DNA from: Marivirga aurantiaca
GTDB lineage: Bacteria; Bacteroidota; Bacteroidia; Cytophagales; Cyclobacteriaceae
Reading direction: 5' to 3'
DNA length: 64,000 nt
Assembly: GCF_016679925.1 (NCBI RefSeq)
Contig: NZ_JAEQBW010000002.1
Span: 62,001 to 126,000 of the forward strand
Below are positions 52,604 through 61,957 of this stretch, piece by piece (within the stretch, counting starts at the first letter, position 1; every line of letters begins with the position of its first letter). The translations under genes and the position numbers were made by a program. Below the pieces are notes generated by a model, which was not told the origin of the DNA, did not search any database, and saw only the letters and a program-made list of their open reading frames with translations.

Positions 52604-52805
52604 AGCTAACGCGAAGCTAAAATGCGTTTGCTACACTTGGCTGATGAAATACTAAAGTAGCGAAGCCAAATCATAACCACAATTATTGAAAGAGAAATGA
52701 AGGAAAAAATCCTGAATCTAAATGAAATATTAAGTTTGGCTTTGTGGAGAAATACCTTCACTCTTTACTAAAAGCAGTAAGCAAGTGCAGCAGCAAATGT
52801 TATGC
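52604..52805 (-). other. attC-like recombination site 1
   Basis: A 202-bp interval bounded by AGCTAAC (52604-52610) and GTTATGC (52799-52805). Inside, GCGTTTGCTACACTTG (from 52624) is complementary with small bulges to AAGTGCAGCAGCAAAT (ending 52798), forming a long stem. The hepT stop codon lies inside GTTATGC and the next gene starts 15 bp past the other end, as in integron cassettes. Confidence 0.5.
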
Positions 52806-53138
52806 ACCTTTTAATGTTCTGATTTCGTCAGCTAAAACAGGAACATTCCTTTGAATTATCCCCCATAACATCTCTGGTTCAACCGAATCGTAAGCGTGTG
52901 AAATAATATTTCTCAATCCAATGATGTTTTTAGAGGCTGAAATTTGAACGTTTGGGTTAGTATCAATGATTTTCCGAATGGCTTCGCCAATGATTTCTAA
53001 ATCCCTCTCTATAGCCCGTTGCAAAATAATGTCATTAGAAAAATTGTTGAAGTCATTTTGAGTTTTCTGCTTAATAGATTCGATCTCCTGGATAACACTC
53101 TCAATGTCTAAAATGTATTTGAGTAGTTTAGGCTGCAT
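52800..53138 (-). CDS. hepT: HEPN-domain toxin, HepT/DUF86 family
   Basis: 112 residues, all helical. The RX4HXY motif of HepT ribonuclease toxins is intact: R76, H81 and Y83 in LRNIISHAYD. The preceding RAIERDLEIIGEAIRKI (41-57) is the conserved second helix. HepT cleaves RNA, and in characterised pairs the MntA partner neutralises it by adenylylating the Tyr of this motif. It overlaps mntA by 11 bases (mntA first). The stop codon lies in an attC-like core, which fits a toxin-antitoxin cassette. Confidence 0.93.
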   Translation of the reverse strand: MQPKLLKYILDIESVIQEIESIKQKTQNDFNNFSNDIILQRAIERDLEIIGEAIRKIIDTNPNVQISASKNIIGLRNIISHAYDSVEPEMLWGIIQRNVPVLADEIRTLKGA

Positions 53139-53436
53139 ACAAATCTACTTTTGACTGGTATACCTCTTTTTTGAGAATTGGGTTCTTCAGTGATTTGGTA
53201 GACACGAGGTCGACTTTTCTATCTAGAATTTCTTGAAGCTGATGCAATAAAGAGAAATAGTTATCAGCATAGTCCAAAACGTCAATATTATCAGAAAAAT
53301 CAACAAGAAGGTCGATATCGCTGTCTTCATTCATAGCATCTTTTGCAGCTGATCCAAACAAAGCAATAGCAACCACATGATGTTTTTTACATGCGTCTAC
53401 AATCTCATGAAGTTTATTTTGAACCAAATCAACCAT
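53128..53436 (-). CDS. mntA: MntA-type nucleotidyltransferase antitoxin
   Basis: 102 residues, a minimal nucleotidyltransferase. The active-site pattern GSX10DXD is complete: G28-S29 in ALFGSAAKD, D40 and D42 in EDSDIDLLVDF, with a further Asp near DRKVDLVS. Members of this type transfer AMP to the HepT tyrosine and so switch the toxin off. It is the first gene of the pair. On the upstream side GGTGCACAACA (53485-53495) mirrors TGTTATGCACC (52798-52808) with one mismatch, so the two-gene unit is flanked by inverted cassette-end-like sequences. Confidence 0.93.
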   Translation of the reverse strand: MVDLVQNKLHEIVDACKKHHVVAIALFGSAAKDAMNEDSDIDLLVDFSDNIDVLDYADNYFSLLHQLQEILDRKVDLVSTKSLKNPILKKEVYQSKVDLYAA

Positions 53437-53651
53437 AATTCAAAGATACATGAAATTTTGAATAATCCTTAATCTATGCTGTATGGTGCACAACAATTCG
53501 CTAAACTCTATAGAGAGTTTAACCACAATATAACAACATTGTGTTTATATATTATTATCAAATGTTCCGAAAAGTTAATTGAATCTGTCGGGGCATACAG
53601 GGTACATTTTATTGAGTGGCACTGCCAACCTATTTCAGGATTAAAAGCTCT

Positions 53652-53851
53652 CCCGGGCGAAGTGATCAGTCTCCCGGCTTAATTTTGCCCGTCCCGGGAG
53701 AGTTAGCAGGCTTCCCGGCTAAGTTGGCACCTTTCCCGGGTGAATATATACCCGTCCCGGGTGAATTTGCGGTGCTCCCGGCTCCCGGGGAACCCCCAAA
53801 GTCTCCCGGGAAGCACTTAAGGTGTCCCGGGAAGCCTGAATTTCTCCCGGG
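53652..53851. repeat. 21-bp phased tandem array of CCCGG(G) cores
   Basis: Eleven CCCGG cores start at 53652, 53673, 53693, 53714, 53735, 53756, 53777, 53784, 53805, 53826 and 53846. Spacings are 21, 20, 21, 21, 21, 21, 7, 21, 21 and 20 bp. Eight cores are the full palindrome CCCGGG, and the sequence between cores is variable. The array ends 19 bp from the stop codon of the GC-rich gene 53871-54569, on its downstream side. Confidence 0.85.
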
Positions 53852-53870
53852 AGAGCATGAAAAAGCAAAT

Positions 53871-54569
53871 TTAACGGTTGTGGTACTTGCTTGTATACCC
53901 CTTTTTCCTCACCTCATCCTTCCAGAAGATGTATTTTCCGGCTTCCCTGATTTCATCTACAGCTTGCTTCAGGTAGGAGTAGGCCTTATCCCGGGTGATT
54001 TTGGGCTGGTTGTCTTCCCTTCTTTCGCCATTGGATTTAGCCAACAGTATGTTTAAGTCGGATGCCTGGCTGGCGGCCTGGTTGAGTTTGTCTTCTTCAA
54101 AATTGATGGCTTGCAACATAGGTAAGTTGGCCATTCCGAGTGCGGAAAGATCACTCAAATCCTGCACCAGGTCGGCATGGCCGCTGCCTTCTTCCACGCT
54201 TTGCACTTTCTTCAGTAAATCGGTACGCTTACGGAAGGCAAAACGGAAGGCGTGTTCCATTTGATTTTTTAAATCGTAGGCTTTCGGGCTTGTTTCGTCC
54301 CATTCCTGCTGGGCTTGTTCTTTGGTGTACCGGGCTTTGTTCCAGGCCGACTGGGCATAGCGCAATGCGCCAATGCGGGCTTCAAGTCCATCAAACAAGG
54401 CTTGGTCCACGCCCACGGCAATGAGTTTTTCCTGGTCTGTCCGACTCCATTCCTGCAGGTCGGAGGCTTCCTGCAAAAATACATCAACAGGCATGTTAGG
54501 GATTTGTGTTTCGGTAGGTAGAAGTGCTTCAATACTGCCTTTTAGGGCTTCAAAATTGTCTTTTGACAT
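53871..54569 (-). CDS. All-helical protein of unknown function, GC-rich island gene
   Basis: 232 residues, predicted helical throughout, with no membrane segment or signal peptide. The core has many Ala, Gln, Glu and Leu (AQSAWNKARYTKEQAQQEWDE), and the C-terminus ITRDKAYSYLKQAVDEIREAGKYIFW is helical and ends basic. I think related proteins occur widely in Bacteroidota accessory regions, but I know no function. The ATG at 54569 is favoured; the frame upstream adds 21 residues rich in Tyr and Phe. Base composition is clearly richer in GC than neighbouring genes, suggesting transfer. A 21-bp phased CCCGGG array follows the stop codon directly. Confidence 0.75.
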   Translation of the reverse strand: MSKDNFEALKGSIEALLPTETQIPNMPVDVFLQEASDLQEWSRTDQEKLIAVGVDQALFDGLEARIGALRYAQSAWNKARYTKEQAQQEWDETSPKAYDLKNQMEHAFRFAFRKRTDLLKKVQSVEEGSGHADLVQDLSDLSALGMANLPMLQAINFEEDKLNQAASQASDLNILLAKSNGERREDNQPKITRDKAYSYLKQAVDEIREAGKYIFWKDEVRKKGYTSKYHNR

Positions 54570-55018
54570 TTTTCCGGGGTTTAGTTGAAAATTATACTGG
54601 TGAAATTTATAAAGGCCAACAATAGATGTCAAGTAAATATTGGTATTATTTTATGTATGTGAGGGGTGAGGTAGATGAAGATGGTTTTGTGGAGTTCTCT
54701 GTCAGATCATTCCTGTTCTTTATTGTTCAAAAAGATGGGGAAAGAGCACCAAAAAATCTACTGGTTCAGATTTCCCGGAATGTAAACTAAGATAGCTCAT
54801 GTTATTTACTGCTCAGAATATTATGGAAACCAGTGCGATAATCAGTGCAAGTATAGCTATCATGTGATTTAATGAGATAATTTATCAAGCTGCCATGATG
54901 TAACGTTTAGTATAAGAATAGTAGTCGACTGTGTTGATCTTTCCTGTCAAATTACAAACATGCTAAGCGAGAAACAACCCCTGAATTTACTACTGAATCG
55001 GCTATTATTTTTACATTG
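54570..55018. other. Intergenic region with attC-like site 3
   Basis: About 450 bp. The right third (54899-55024) is an attC-like palindrome. I see no gene or clear promoter in the rest. Confidence 0.5.
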
Positions 55019-55024
55019 TTATGC
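54899..55024 (-). other. attC-like recombination site 3
   Basis: 126 bp bounded by ATGTAAC (54899-54905) and GTTATGC (55018-55024). TTTAGTATAAGAATAGTAG near the left end is partly complementary to GCTATTATTTTTACA near the right end. The stop codon of the nuclease-like gene (55019-55021) lies inside the GTTATGC core. Its GTTACAT end departs from the GTTRRRY consensus. Confidence 0.45.
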
Positions 55025-55654
55025 ACAGGCATTCTTCAGTATTTCTTTGGCAAACAATTCAGATAAAAAGAAATAGGAAGTAACATCCTGTGGTTTTTCG
55101 GTTTTGGGTTTGTAAACAAATTCAATACTGTCAAAGTCTACTGAAATTAATCCGATATTGCTTTCTTTAAGCAAATTCAAATCAACCCGGTGTATGTATT
55201 GTTTAGGGTAAGCCAAATATGATTTATGAGAAAAAAACTTATACCGTAGTGCTTGATAGAACCCCGATTTCCAGTCTTTGAGTTTTGCTTCTATTGAGAA
55301 TAAATTTTGGGTATGCGATTTATACTTCCTTTTCTGAATAATTTTATTGCCATCCATGCAAATGAAATTTTCACTTTTAAGGCAATTCAATAATTTTTTC
55401 AAACGCATTTTATCAAAACAATTTTCATAAAGCAAATCTGAATTCAATATTTGTTTTTGTTGGAACAAACTCACAAACAGAGACATCATATCGTAACTGT
55501 TCAAAAAAAGGTTTTCTTCATTCATTTCGGTAGTAAAAACCAAATCAGCCACACCATTGCCTGTACCAAATTCAGTGGTAATGTATTGGGTATTGAAAGT
55601 CTTTGTGAGATTTTCAATCAAAACAGGTATCATTTCACTTTCGTATCTAAACAT
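55019..55654 (-). CDS. PD-(D/E)XK nuclease-like protein with winged-helix-like insert
   Basis: 211 residues. The pattern of the PD-(D/E)XK superfamily is visible: E28 in ITTEFGTGNGVADLVF with D37, then E122-A-K124 in FSIEAKLKDWKSG and Q134 in YQALRYKFF, followed by a strand SYLAYP. Residues about 55-112 between the two motifs look like an inserted winged helix (KMRLKKLLNCLKSENFICMDGNK). No Cys cluster or signal peptide. It follows the kinase gene by 4 bp if the ATG at 55654 is used; an upstream ATG at 55711 would overlap the kinase by 53 bases. Nuclease activity is inferred from the motif only. Confidence 0.75.
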   Translation of the reverse strand: MFRYESEMIPVLIENLTKTFNTQYITTEFGTGNGVADLVFTTEMNEENLFLNSYDMMSLFVSLFQQKQILNSDLLYENCFDKMRLKKLLNCLKSENFICMDGNKIIQKRKYKSHTQNLFSIEAKLKDWKSGFYQALRYKFFSHKSYLAYPKQYIHRVDLNLLKESNIGLISVDFDSIEFVYKPKTEKPQDVTSYFFLSELFAKEILKNACA

Positions 55655-55658
55655 TTTC

Positions 55659-57707
55659 TTAACACATTTTTTCAAACACTTCTTTCCAGACAAATAAGTG
55701 TTTGTACTCATCCCTTTTATAAACAGCAGTAAGCTTTTGATAGTTACTGATAGCCTGATTTATTCTACCCAGAAAGTAAGAAGGTTTGTTTGAAACATTC
55801 TTTATTTGCTCCACTTCTTTATTAACAGAATAGATATAGTGTAATTTATTATTCTGGGCATTGATTACATCCTCTGCCGACTTACCATTACAATACCTGC
55901 AATGACAAGCACCCAATACATTTGAGATTTGATTTAATCTAGTTGGTCTTTTCTTTTCAATGGAAACTGTTCCTAACAATTCGGGAAAATAATATCGCTC
56001 ATATAAATTATATCCTACTCCTGCCTCTTTATGTAAGTCTTCTGAAAAACTTTCAAATCTAGCTGCTCCTGCAGAGAAACCAACCAGGCCCAATGATATT
56101 AAACCTAAACCTAAACTATTCAACCGCCCTGCAATGACTGGCCTGCCAGTAAAGCGCTGCAAATTCAAAAGAGTATCAATGTAATGGAATAACACTATGG
56201 CTGAACTATTTCTATCGATACCATCTGCATAGACAATATATCCATCACACTCATGAGCTGAATAATAATTGAGTAAATCATTTTTGTATTGTTGGTCGGT
56301 TAAGCTGCTACTGTTGATACAAATTCCAGCATACAATTTTTTGTCAGCATATTCAGGAACTGAATTTTTGTAATCAATACTTTCTTTAAGCAGTTTAATA
56401 TCCAAATCAAACCATTGTTCAACGGGGTTCTGTTTGTATGTAGGCAAGACATTTGTGTTATGAGTGTAATGATAAGGCGAAACAAAAATATCAGCTCCCA
56501 ATTTAGCTTCTTCATCAATTACCAATTTAACATAATCTTGTTGCTTCTTATAGGTGTTGAGATATGAAGGAGTAATAACTTCAAAAGTTGGTGGGCAATA
56601 TGGAAGTTGCATTAAACCTTTTCTATCAGTGTAAGTGTCGTAAGCAAAGCGGACTGTTTCGGGGTCAATAATTCTTGAAAATTGATGGCCTTGTATTAGC
56701 CCCAATAATTTCTTTTGTTGAAATTGGTGAATTGCCGGAAACTCAACAAAAATAGTTTCATCAGAAGTTTTTAAATACTCTTCTAAAACACTTCCATCAT
56801 TCCATAAGCGCAAAACAAATTTTGGCGTGGTGTCATAATATCTTTTTAGTACTGCATCTTTTGAATTGAAAATGGTAATCAGTTCGTCAATATTTAAATA
56901 ACGTTGATACGGATTTTTTTCAAGTAACTTGAAAATTATGTTTTCAAATTTGTTGGTGATATCGGCAAAATATTTCCTCGGTGGAATAGGGCTTTCATTC
57001 TTTATTTTGTCAATGAGTTCGGGTAGACTATTGAAAACATAGGGAACTTTTGATGTAAGCATTTCATAAAAAATAATACCCAAAGTATAAAGGTCGCTTC
57101 GCTTATCTATATTCTTACTGTCTGTAATTTGTTCGGGTGATGAATAAAGTGGAGACCCTAAAAAATTTCCAGTACTCGTGAGTGTTGTGTAATCAATGAC
57201 TTTGGAGATTCCGTAGTCCAAAATTTTCACTTGTTCGCCATTGACAATAATATTTTCAGGTTTCAAATCACGGTGAATAATTCCCTTTGTTTCATCATCG
57301 CCCCGTACCTGATGCAAACCTTTGATGCCTTCCAAAATATTTTTAAAAATAGAAACTATCTGTGCTTCACTTGTTAATCCTTTGTTCTTTATAATCTTTT
57401 GCAGTGTTTCTCCTTCTGCAAATTCCATTACCAAAAAGTAAGAAGGCACACTCAAATCTTCTCCTTTAAAATCATCAACATACTTTATTAAGGAAGGATG
57501 ATTGACAGTTTTCATTATATCAATCTCCCTTTGAATGCGGTTGTTTTCTCCGCTGTGTTTGTATTCCTGAAGTATGTAATCTTCTCTGAAAACCTTTATT
57601 GCAAAAGTGTTTCCTTCTTTGATTGCTTTATAAACTGACCCAAAACCCCCAGCACCTATAAAATCAGTAAAAGTGTAACCTTTGATTCTTTGATTGATGA
57701 GTGCCAT
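55659..57707 (-). CDS. Ser/Thr protein kinase fused to a C-terminal TIM-barrel-like domain
   Basis: 682 residues. The N-terminal 280 are a complete Hanks-type kinase: glycine loop IGAGGFGSVYKAI (17-29), K38 in FAIKVF, HRDLKPEN (145-152), DYG in place of DFG (164-166) and SPLYSSPEQ (185-193). No transmembrane or sensor domain follows. Residues about 290-682 are a separate domain with alternating strands and helices (GADIFVSPYHY, DGYIVYADGIDR, GRPVIAGRLNS, GLVGFSAGAA) suggesting a TIM barrel, then C601-x-C603-x-x-C606 in GACHCRYCNG, similar in layout to the zinc site of tRNA-guanine-transglycosylase-like enzymes. First gene of a two-gene unit with the PD-(D/E)XK-like protein. Confidence 0.85.
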   Translation of the reverse strand: MALINQRIKGYTFTDFIGAGGFGSVYKAIKEGNTFAIKVFREDYILQEYKHSGENNRIQREIDIMKTVNHPSLIKYVDDFKGEDLSVPSYFLVMEFAEGETLQKIIKNKGLTSEAQIVSIFKNILEGIKGLHQVRGDDETKGIIHRDLKPENIIVNGEQVKILDYGISKVIDYTTLTSTGNFLGSPLYSSPEQITDSKNIDKRSDLYTLGIIFYEMLTSKVPYVFNSLPELIDKIKNESPIPPRKYFADITNKFENIIFKLLEKNPYQRYLNIDELITIFNSKDAVLKRYYDTTPKFVLRLWNDGSVLEEYLKTSDETIFVEFPAIHQFQQKKLLGLIQGHQFSRIIDPETVRFAYDTYTDRKGLMQLPYCPPTFEVITPSYLNTYKKQQDYVKLVIDEEAKLGADIFVSPYHYTHNTNVLPTYKQNPVEQWFDLDIKLLKESIDYKNSVPEYADKKLYAGICINSSSLTDQQYKNDLLNYYSAHECDGYIVYADGIDRNSSAIVLFHYIDTLLNLQRFTGRPVIAGRLNSLGLGLISLGLVGFSAGAARFESFSEDLHKEAGVGYNLYERYYFPELLGTVSIEKKRPTRLNQISNVLGACHCRYCNGKSAEDVINAQNNKLHYIYSVNKEVEQIKNVSNKPSYFLGRINQAISNYQKLTAVYKRDEYKHLFVWKEVFEKMC

Positions 57708-58165
57708 TATTTTTCTAATTTACATTTATCTTTGGGTCATTACGCTTGTGCATAACATTTGAATACGTGCACCTCAAGGTACACATACTCACTTTATATT
57801 TTAATTCACCGACAACAAACAAATGTAAGTATTTACAAACATTTACAAATAGTTTTATCGGATATACTAATTAAAGCGCTGAACATACTCCCTTCCCTCA
57901 TCAAATACTAATTATTCATCGAAAAGCAATGTAAAATACCTAAATGTAGGTAGTGGTTTTAGCCAAAAAGAGGAGTGAGGAGGAGAAATGTGGAGATAAT
58001 TCCGGAGTCCATGGTTTAAGCTGTGGGCTATGGAGAATGAACAATGGAATGATTTTAGCCATTTCCAGTCTTATAAGATAAATGAATAGGGGTAGGATTT
58101 GCCAGTCGGCAAGGTCTTTATCCAGCTTTGATATTAAATCCAGCAGGATTTGATGGGTTGAAAAT
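57708..58165. other. Intergenic region at the cassette-cluster boundary
   Basis: 458 bp. GCATAAC (57750-57756) near the kinase start is a possible attC end of the preceding cassette, but no matching arm is clear. The remainder up to the MATE gene has no recognised feature apart from a weak AAATCC/GGATTT hairpin near 58140. Confidence 0.45.
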
Positions 58166-61351: not shown

Positions 61352-61957
61352 TTAATTATCATCTGGTTTAAATTGATTAATGCACATATCAACTATTTCA
61401 TCCATAGCGCACTCTTTTACTTCAATTTCTGTTTGTTGGCAATTAGAATATGAAGTAAAAGTTAATCCATTTACTGGGTCTAAATAATATTCATGATTGT
61501 AGATGTTATAATTCTTCTGAAGGTGCATCATTGTATAAAAAGAATCACTAGTCCAATCACATTCTGTACCAACTAAATGTGAAAATATTCTTAACCTTTT
61601 TTTGTCAATCAGCATTTCAGTAAAGTCCCAGCCAGCAAAATAATTTTGTACATACTCTCGATATCGTAAAATTTGATCTAAAGCTCTGTATGTTATACCG
61701 TCTCGTTTCAATTCAATAATATGGACATCAAAGAACTCAGTCTTTTTTTCAATTGTTTTATGGACTGCTAATAGATCGATCAAACCTTTTTGGATTTCAA
61801 ATTCTTTATAAATTTTTAAATCTTTAATGATTGCTTGTTCATTTAAAGGATACCTAATCAGTTGTTTTTCTAAAATTGATCTGTTCTCATTATCAGTCAT
61901 CAAAAGTGATTCTTGAAGGTCTGATTCCCATTGAAAATAAGTGTTGATACTACTCAT
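61352..61957 (-). CDS. PD-(D/E)XK endonuclease-like protein, NucS-like
   Basis: 201 residues. The nuclease motif set is complete: KGLIDLLAVHK with D61, HIIELKRDGITYRALDQILR with E82 and K84, then Q95 and Y99 in DQILRYREYV. This matches the catalytic half of NucS-like/DUF91 endonucleases, which cut branched or mismatched DNA. The 50 residues before it are helical and the C-terminal 80 are unassigned; the N-terminal ssDNA-binding domain of full NucS is missing. It is divergent from the unknown gene at 62097 with 139 bp between starts, and ends at a clear terminator. Confidence 0.78.
   Translation of the reverse strand: MSSINTYFQWESDLQESLLMTDNENRSILEKQLIRYPLNEQAIIKDLKIYKEFEIQKGLIDLLAVHKTIEKKTEFFDVHIIELKRDGITYRALDQILRYREYVQNYFAGWDFTEMLIDKKRLRIFSHLVGTECDWTSDSFYTMMHLQKNYNIYNHEYYLDPVNGLTFTSYSNCQQTEIEVKECAMDEIVDMCINQFKPDDN

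Follow-up and report, generated by a model that had tools for sequence, protein, structure and literature searches.

The window, a stretch of 64,000 nucleotides from Marivirga aurantiaca (contig NZ_JAEQBW010000002.1, positions 62,001 to 126,000), carries on its minus strand two closely spaced genes that encode a 682-residue fusion of a kinase (K) to a barrel domain (B) and a 211-residue nuclease-like partner (N). The open reading frame (ORF) of K-B spans 55659-57707 and was assigned from its Pfam match and from the presence of N directly downstream in relatives. Four bases (55655-55658) separate it from the ORF of N, which starts at the ATG at 55654 and runs to 55019.

Predicted folds of the kinase, partner and barrel

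Residues 11-270 of the fusion (56898-57677, minus strand) match Pfam Pkinase with an E-value of 2.3e-50, and K38, E61, D147, N152 and D164 are identical in all 11 kinase-bearing rows checked. By its Pkinase profile match and its catalytic lysine and two aspartates, K is classed from sequence as a Hanks Ser/Thr kinase, and the complete kinase joined to a domain of about 390 residues that a preliminary description had reported is indeed present, the appended domain being the last 393 residues. The kinase domain scores well on the PADLOC PD-T4-6 kinase models (E 6.6e-62), which other Hanks kinases may match too, and is covered by a PADLOC mad6 match. The family-specific NCBIfam kinase models of bacteriophage exclusion (BREX)/Pgl and of the methylation-associated defence system (MADS) did not match across the whole protein: MAD6 reached 124 of 460 bits and BREX_PglW 47.5 of 990, with the kinase domain alone matching.

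Neither Pfam nor NCBIfam gave a significant match to the window's N (55019-55654, minus strand), and PADLOC gave none at all. Its AlphaFold2 model (14 sequences; pLDDT 91.8, pTM 0.86) proceeds from a helix (residues 5-20) through two strands (24-30 and 35-41) and a winged-helix-like segment (about residues 54-107; 55334-55495, minus strand), inserted between D37 and E122-x-K124, to a further strand (119-123) and helix (128-140). This order of strands and helices is that of a PD-(D/E)XK core with an E...D...ExK...Q signature, which makes N a predicted nuclease. The earlier claims of a nuclease-like partner four bases downstream, bearing this signature and a winged-helix-like insert, thus stand, and the PD-(D/E)XK-type fold is recovered by structure prediction. 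All 14 aligned sequences share E5, E28, G34, D37, E122, K124, W128, Q134 and R137; across 21 rows, E28, E122 and W128 remain invariant, with E5, D37, K124, Q134 and R137 each conserved in at least 90%. The sole Foldseek match at E <= 0.001 is SPO1766 (3dnx, E 4.4e-4), followed by BsaWI (4zsf, E 9e-3); TM-scores to these top two matches are low (0.33 and 0.20, respectively), and compared with both proteins N carries the winged-helix-like insert. The N profile found weak MarR-type and unrelated matches among PDB sequences, and the window's N returned a value of 0.028 in PHROGs.

For the window copy of the barrel (residues 290-682; 55662-56840, minus strand), Pfam and NCBIfam likewise lacked a significant match and PADLOC and PHROGs gave nothing, and its profile drew one meaningless match (E 4.8) from PDB sequences. 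Structural comparison was more informative: the best AlphaFold2 model (13 aligned sequences) reached a pLDDT of 83.4 and a pTM of 0.85, and the best 50 of its 71 Foldseek matches in the PDB at E <= 0.001 are all tRNA-guanine transglycosylases (TGTs), with E-values of 6e-7 to 1e-5 and TMq values of 0.51-0.60. The domain also carries a CxCxxC motif (residues 601-606; 55890-55907, minus strand) that resembles the TGT zinc site, as the preliminary description had noticed from the sequence, and H623 lies downstream of it. On this model, B is predicted to adopt a TGT barrel fold with a zinc-site motif.

TGTs use an Asp nucleophile and a second Asp that selects guanine. In 18 aligned barrels the column corresponding to the nucleophile holds S, T, A, G, E or Q and never Asp (0/18), while the guanine-selecting Asp is aligned to a gap immediately ahead of the invariant P122 of the domain, with Asp absent from columns 120-125 in all 18; these active-site columns were assigned from a profile alignment rather than by superposition. 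A D59-P60 pair (D348-P349 in the protein) is kept in 18 of 18 barrels and may, judged by strand order, lie near the other active-site Asp of TGTs, an uncertain placement as the profile alignment put that Asp elsewhere. None of the 18 B relatives matches the Pfam TGT family (PF01702) at E <= 0.5, and PADLOC returned four weak single-member matches, with no TGT model by name among them. Pairwise profile alignment of B with 15 TGTs (hhalign) gave a probability of 80.6% and an E-value of 1.3e-5, and in a search of 34 genomes the B profile aligned over 62 positions with the zinc region of a single true archaeal TGT (E 1.5e-4 for its genome), a protein (locus L057 of genome G1115) whose own PF01702 match has an E-value of 7e-75. 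In the host's class the B profile had no match in 393 of 395 genomes, although a TGT was found in 40 of 41 genomes, and the host encodes its own TGT at G000:C11:739718. B therefore shares with the TGT family its fold and, in most members, the CxCxxC motif and His, and differs from it in its fused kinase and in lacking both a Pfam match and an Asp aligned with the nucleophile. Because the TGT fold comes with neither the Pfam match nor the nucleophile-aligned Asp, B is probably a remodelled TGT. The possibility, raised at the outset, that the C-terminal domain would match a housekeeping family was realized at the level of fold and went no further, and B as the housekeeping TGT itself is ruled out by the separate host enzyme and the missing PF01702 match.

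Co-occurrence, layouts and distribution

Genome-contig, plasmid and whole-genome searches together yielded 22 distinct B loci. The Kocuria and Arthrobacter loci were found through N, as the Natribaculum locus first was, and these three are therefore biased towards having N. Left out of the counts were the true archaeal TGT, a second Gordonia record with the same plasmid length and match, and six loci (L022-L026 and L028) where the fetched stretch contains N but neither B nor K. At 21 of the 22 B loci N belongs to the same cluster, either beside B or one gene away, the intervening gene being K (Natribaculum, Polaromonas and genome G657) or a PIN-domain gene (genome G172); this co-occurrence, whose lack elsewhere the preliminary description had named among the findings that would refute its proposal, rules out chance adjacency of K-B and N. 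K is found at 19 of the 22, fused to B in 14 and as a separate gene of the cluster in five. One genome-contig scan with B returned 10 loci, every one with K fused and N directly downstream.

Fused K-B followed by N is the layout of the window, L007-L016 and G978, and fused K-B facing N that of Priestia and Kocuria. The order N-K-B as three genes occurs in Natribaculum, Polaromonas and G657 (with a truncated B), K-B-N as three genes in G634, K and B as two genes facing N in Arthrobacter, and B with the PIN gene facing N in G172. Since the layouts differ among loci, the set does not represent a single frozen operon. In pairwise comparisons between loci, the identity of B correlates with that of N (r 0.90 for 17 loci; r 0.60, Mantel p 0.0008, for 11 distant loci), which fits co-inheritance of the two sequences or a shared species history.

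By record titles, B loci occur in Bacteroidota, Bacillota, Actinomycetota, Pseudomonadota and one haloarchaeon, and six of the 22 are on plasmid records. Two contigs of 3.2-3.4 kb from metagenome-assembled genomes, L015 (labelled 'archaeon') and L016 ('Peptostreptococcaceae'), carry copies resembling the Chlorobiota one (L014); both are probably misbinned, and their labels were excluded from the phylum count. Counting the centre genome in each case, a single-sequence search found B in 2 of 395 genomes of the host's phylum and a profile search in 2 of 395 of its class; the figures were 4 of 348 for the phylum around G400 and 1 of 34 for the genomes around G399, the true TGT being left out of the last. 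N had no match among phage records and B none in a single-sequence scan of viral contigs, the phage records having been searched with N and not with B. Phage carriage of the module was set aside on these results; one viral contig (L022) has N only.

The N relative on that contig (L022:4776-5306) is short and has no winged-helix insert. At two of the N-only haloarchaeal plasmid loci (L023:4405-5217 and L024:4474-5238), annotated DNA methyltransferase genes lie within 1-2 kb, neighbours that may point to restriction-type roles for N alone. A DUF6884 gene immediately follows the N-only relative at L025:4495-5692.

Restriction-modification operons and cassette-like ends

Neighbouring genes were scanned with Pfam at the window, L010, L013, L018, L041, L042 and L043, and for two genes at L021 and one at L025. 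At L010 the pair is embedded in a type I restriction-modification (R-M) operon in the order hsdM, K-B, N, a 161-residue gene, hsdS and hsdR, with 4-base gaps or overlaps and with HsdM, HsdS and HsdR identified by Pfam. The same gene set surrounds the pair in L008, L011, L012 and L045 by tblastn, giving five type I loci, some of them cut by contig ends (hsdM in L011, hsdR in L008 and hsdS in L012, whose hsdR lies beyond the contig). HsdS diverges strongly in L008 (37% identity) and L045 (28%), whereas identity is 93.9-99% for HsdM and HsdR of these two loci, as would be expected for live specificity change. At a sixth locus, L013, the pair sits between the Mod (N6_N4_Mtase, TypeIII_RM_meth) and Res (ResIII) genes of a type III system, the only case of the order mod-KB-N-res. 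Across these six loci the genes are separated by gaps of 1-6 bases or overlap by 4-8 bases. This placement within R-M operons supports a defence role, which the gene context makes likely, and the earlier proposal of a candidate defence system holds to that extent, as a role read from context.

The type I operons have a further recurrent member, a gene of 161-163 residues between N and hsdS in five of five (for example L010:6699-7184, L008:9816-10301 and L045:9709-10200), for which the L010 copy gave no Pfam match. Elsewhere, an Eco57I-like methylase lies 1.4 kb from N in L018, an hsdM fragment neighbours the module in L043 and an AbiEii gene does so in L042. Beside the kinase-less B-PIN-N cluster, L041:2641-8843 holds a ThiF/JAB set 1.8-3.9 kb from B and a sub-threshold YukD-like gene.

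The window copy has a different setting. Its unit opens with GTTATGCAC (57748-57756, minus strand) and closes with the inverse, GTGCATAAC (55018-55026), which overlaps the N stop codon and is followed by an imperfect palindrome of about 120 bp, an attC-like element (54899-55026, minus strand; matched part 54901-55021). Copies of this element occur in a second array, on another contig of the same genome (G000:C11:399670-399793, 80% identity), and upstream of K-B in L009 (L009:6820-6943, 77%). Nucleotide similarity between the window and L007 begins at the start codon and ceases at the end motif, and by eye GTTATGCAC also stands upstream of the L007 gene. A leader repeat upstream of the unit (57799-57961, minus strand) shares 78% identity with its counterpart in the C11 array, the two other units of which also have inverted GTT...AAC ends. 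We further observed that window 52608-57961 and G000:C11:396500-402500 (L054) form two integron-like arrays with a common leader and two types of attC-like element.

The case for attC-like ends, made in the preliminary description, was upheld in part. The inverse ends are there and the palindrome recurs, but the 7-mer by itself shows no enrichment in the window (7 occurrences against 7.0 expected), and chance readily produces inverted 9-mer pairs like these, of which the window has 26. When the element is folded as single-stranded DNA, most shuffled versions do better than either strand (z +1.3 and +2.2). For the upstream flank, folding is better than that of shuffles on the minus strand (z -2.6) and not on the plus strand. 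The argument for a cassette is accordingly one of position and recurrence of the elements, and we describe the unit as an integron-like cassette. A full integron was dropped from consideration, with no integron integrase (IntI) in the genome above the cut-off (the best at 81 of 265 bits) and the element folding worse than most shuffles.

An MntA-HepT toxin-antitoxin pair, probably another cassette, lies 1.6 kb away with one ORF between (52800-53436, minus strand; Pfam HepT-like E 8e-19, Polbeta E 7e-16), in agreement with the module noted there earlier. The element after HepT (52608-52820) has a copy of 79% identity in the C11 array, and the window's MntA, which is paired with HepT, has a weak PADLOC cyclase match (E 1.8e-4). 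A 201-residue ORF at 61352-61957 gives a weak, sub-threshold NucS_C match (E 0.0056) and is possibly another nuclease.

A candidate sensor-kinase-nuclease module

Several known systems share single features with this set. Type IV cyclic-oligonucleotide-based antiphage signalling systems (CBASS) contain a CD-NTase and a QueC-like gene beside a TGT-like gene; no QueC match was found among the neighbours scanned at the window, L010, L013, L018, L041, L042 and L043. MADS loci, in which the MAD6 kinase belongs to a methylation-associated defence locus, resemble the module in their kinase and are not known to have a TGT-like barrel. PD-T4-6 is a Ser/Thr kinase that defends against phage, and no TGT barrel or PD-(D/E)XK partner is known for it or for KKP, a set of two kinases and a phosphatase. 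The KKP kinases are toxic and defend against phage (PMC11341870), and in PglW of BREX type 2/Pgl a Ser/Thr kinase is joined to a NERD restriction-endonuclease domain within one multidomain protein (PMC12839542), whereas K-B and N are separate proteins that match PglW in the kinase domain only. Cap10 of type IV CBASS is described as a remodelled TGT-family enzyme that binds a protein-linked deazaguanine (PMC11996544). It resembles B as a TGT-family fold remodelled for antiviral use and is set apart by B's partners, a Hanks kinase and a PD-(D/E)XK protein, a distinction drawn from Cap10's published description.

With these precedents for a remodelled TGT in immunity and for kinase-based defence (KKP and PglW), we consider K-B-N a mobile module acting against viruses or other mobile genetic elements, with B as its sensor, K as its signal transducer and N as its cutting enzyme, a reading for which the case is about evenly balanced. 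The signalling order from B through K to N, in which a kinase would license a nuclease as the preliminary description had suggested, and sensing by B, possibly of tRNA or a modified nucleobase, are inferred. The barrel would be the sensing or ligand-binding arm, and it plausibly reads tRNA or a modified base because its TGT fold lacks the catalytic Asp while mostly keeping the zinc-site motif. K, an active-looking kinase usually fused to B, would turn the state of B into phosphorylation; since this apparently intact enzyme stays linked to B across most lineages, B most likely sets its activity. N is the likeliest effector because the nuclease signature is kept and the winged-helix insert is usual, and it would cut nucleic acid once licensed, either directly or through phosphorylation of a partner. 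The module could act on its own, carried by a cassette or a plasmid, or form a second layer within type I and type III R-M operons. More tentatively, and with distinctly less confidence, a catalytically retired TGT may read tRNA or a modified base and so serve as an infection sensor for a kinase that licenses a nuclease, providing R-M systems with a fail-safe against phages with modified DNA or phages that block restriction.

A number of observations weigh against this reading. Among the parts themselves, the winged-helix insert is present in 17 of 21 aligned N rows and missing from four, all three Cys of the CxCxxC motif at the putative zinc site are present in 13 of 18 barrels, sequence similarity between B and TGTs is weak, and only one of the five B models is confident, the other four having pLDDT values of 60.8-75.5. 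Linkage is incomplete: Gordonia (L021) has neither N nor a Hanks kinase in the stretch fetched, G172 (L041) has B and N with a PIN gene in place of K within 14 kb, and the contig of G662 (L042) begins just before B with no K visible. N, in turn, is also found without K or B at six fetched loci, five on haloarchaeal plasmids and one on a viral contig, and for that reason represents a broader family than the K/B set; the Natribaculum N has a PHROGs match to phrog_22231 (E 9e-12), an uncharacterized phage family. In the gene context, the R-M embedding is a raw count of six in 22 loci, and the K-B-N pairs of L010, L011, L012 and L045 are 96.8-100% identical, with L008 about 91% identical to them, such that the five type I loci amount to two or three independent cases. 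No defence neighbour was seen by eye in the ORF lists of L014 and L044, and the contigs of L007, L015 and L016 are too short to judge.

Among other explanations, the best surviving, although unlikely, is that K-B is itself a toxic effector that phosphorylates host or phage proteins after infection, in the manner of KKP, with N as a DNA-binding regulator or restrainer. The toxicity and defence reported for KKP kinases (PMC11341870), the PD-T4-6 scores of K, which other Hanks kinases may share, and the winged-helix-like segment of N are consistent with it. The retention of E122 in 21 of 21 N rows, and of D37, K124 and Q134 in at least 90%, would be odd for a mere regulator, and the four N rows without a winged helix and the kinase-less L041 locus count against this explanation as well.

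Somewhat less probable still is that B remains an enzyme with altered chemistry, modifying DNA, RNA or a partner protein in a Cap10- or DpdA-like way while N restricts unmarked targets and K regulates. The TGT fold and the universally kept D348-P349 would suit such an enzyme, as would Cap10 and the DpdA TGTs that serve R-M-like systems (PMC11996544 and PMC12839542, respectively). The absence of Asp, in all 18 barrels, from the nucleophile column and from the columns near the expected position of the guanine-selecting Asp, together with the missing PF01702 match and the lack of a TGT by name among the PADLOC matches, argues against it, and these changed residues also disfavour the base-modification/restriction pair suggested in the preliminary description. 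An addiction system in the manner of a toxin-antitoxin pair, rather than an antiviral one as such, in which N poisons and K-B restrains, is improbable: it would accommodate the plasmid records and the position of the window cassette near another toxin-antitoxin pair, but addiction alone fails to explain the six loci tightly embedded in R-M operons. We give very little credence to K-B-N being a regulator or accessory of host R-M enzymes, for example by phosphorylating Hsd or Res to control restriction, which would fit its position between methylase and restriction genes of type I and III operons and is disfavoured by the window, L014, Priestia, Kocuria, Polaromonas and Arthrobacter, where ORF lists or incomplete annotation, with most neighbours not domain-scanned, show no R-M operon beside the module.

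The combination of known folds and themes in a composition that we found nowhere described indicates that the sensor-kinase-nuclease module may be an undescribed immune system. No kinase-TGT-nuclease system appeared among the listed literature matches, a weak indication of absence as the full-text searches were not all aimed at this composition and subscription papers were mostly outside them; in the main text of DefensePredictor, 'transglycosylase' and 'TGT' do not occur. PADLOC 2023, NCBIfam 2026 and Pfam gave no model for the window's B or N. If the module defends, it would add to prokaryotic immunity a sensing fold, a repurposed TGT that echoes Cap10, as well as an example of a kinase controlling a PD-(D/E)XK effector that recurs in type I and type III restriction operons, and it would provide defence-annotation tools with two protein families for which these databases gave no model. 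Its placement in these operons also turns the idea of a kinase-based backup within R-M systems into a testable one.

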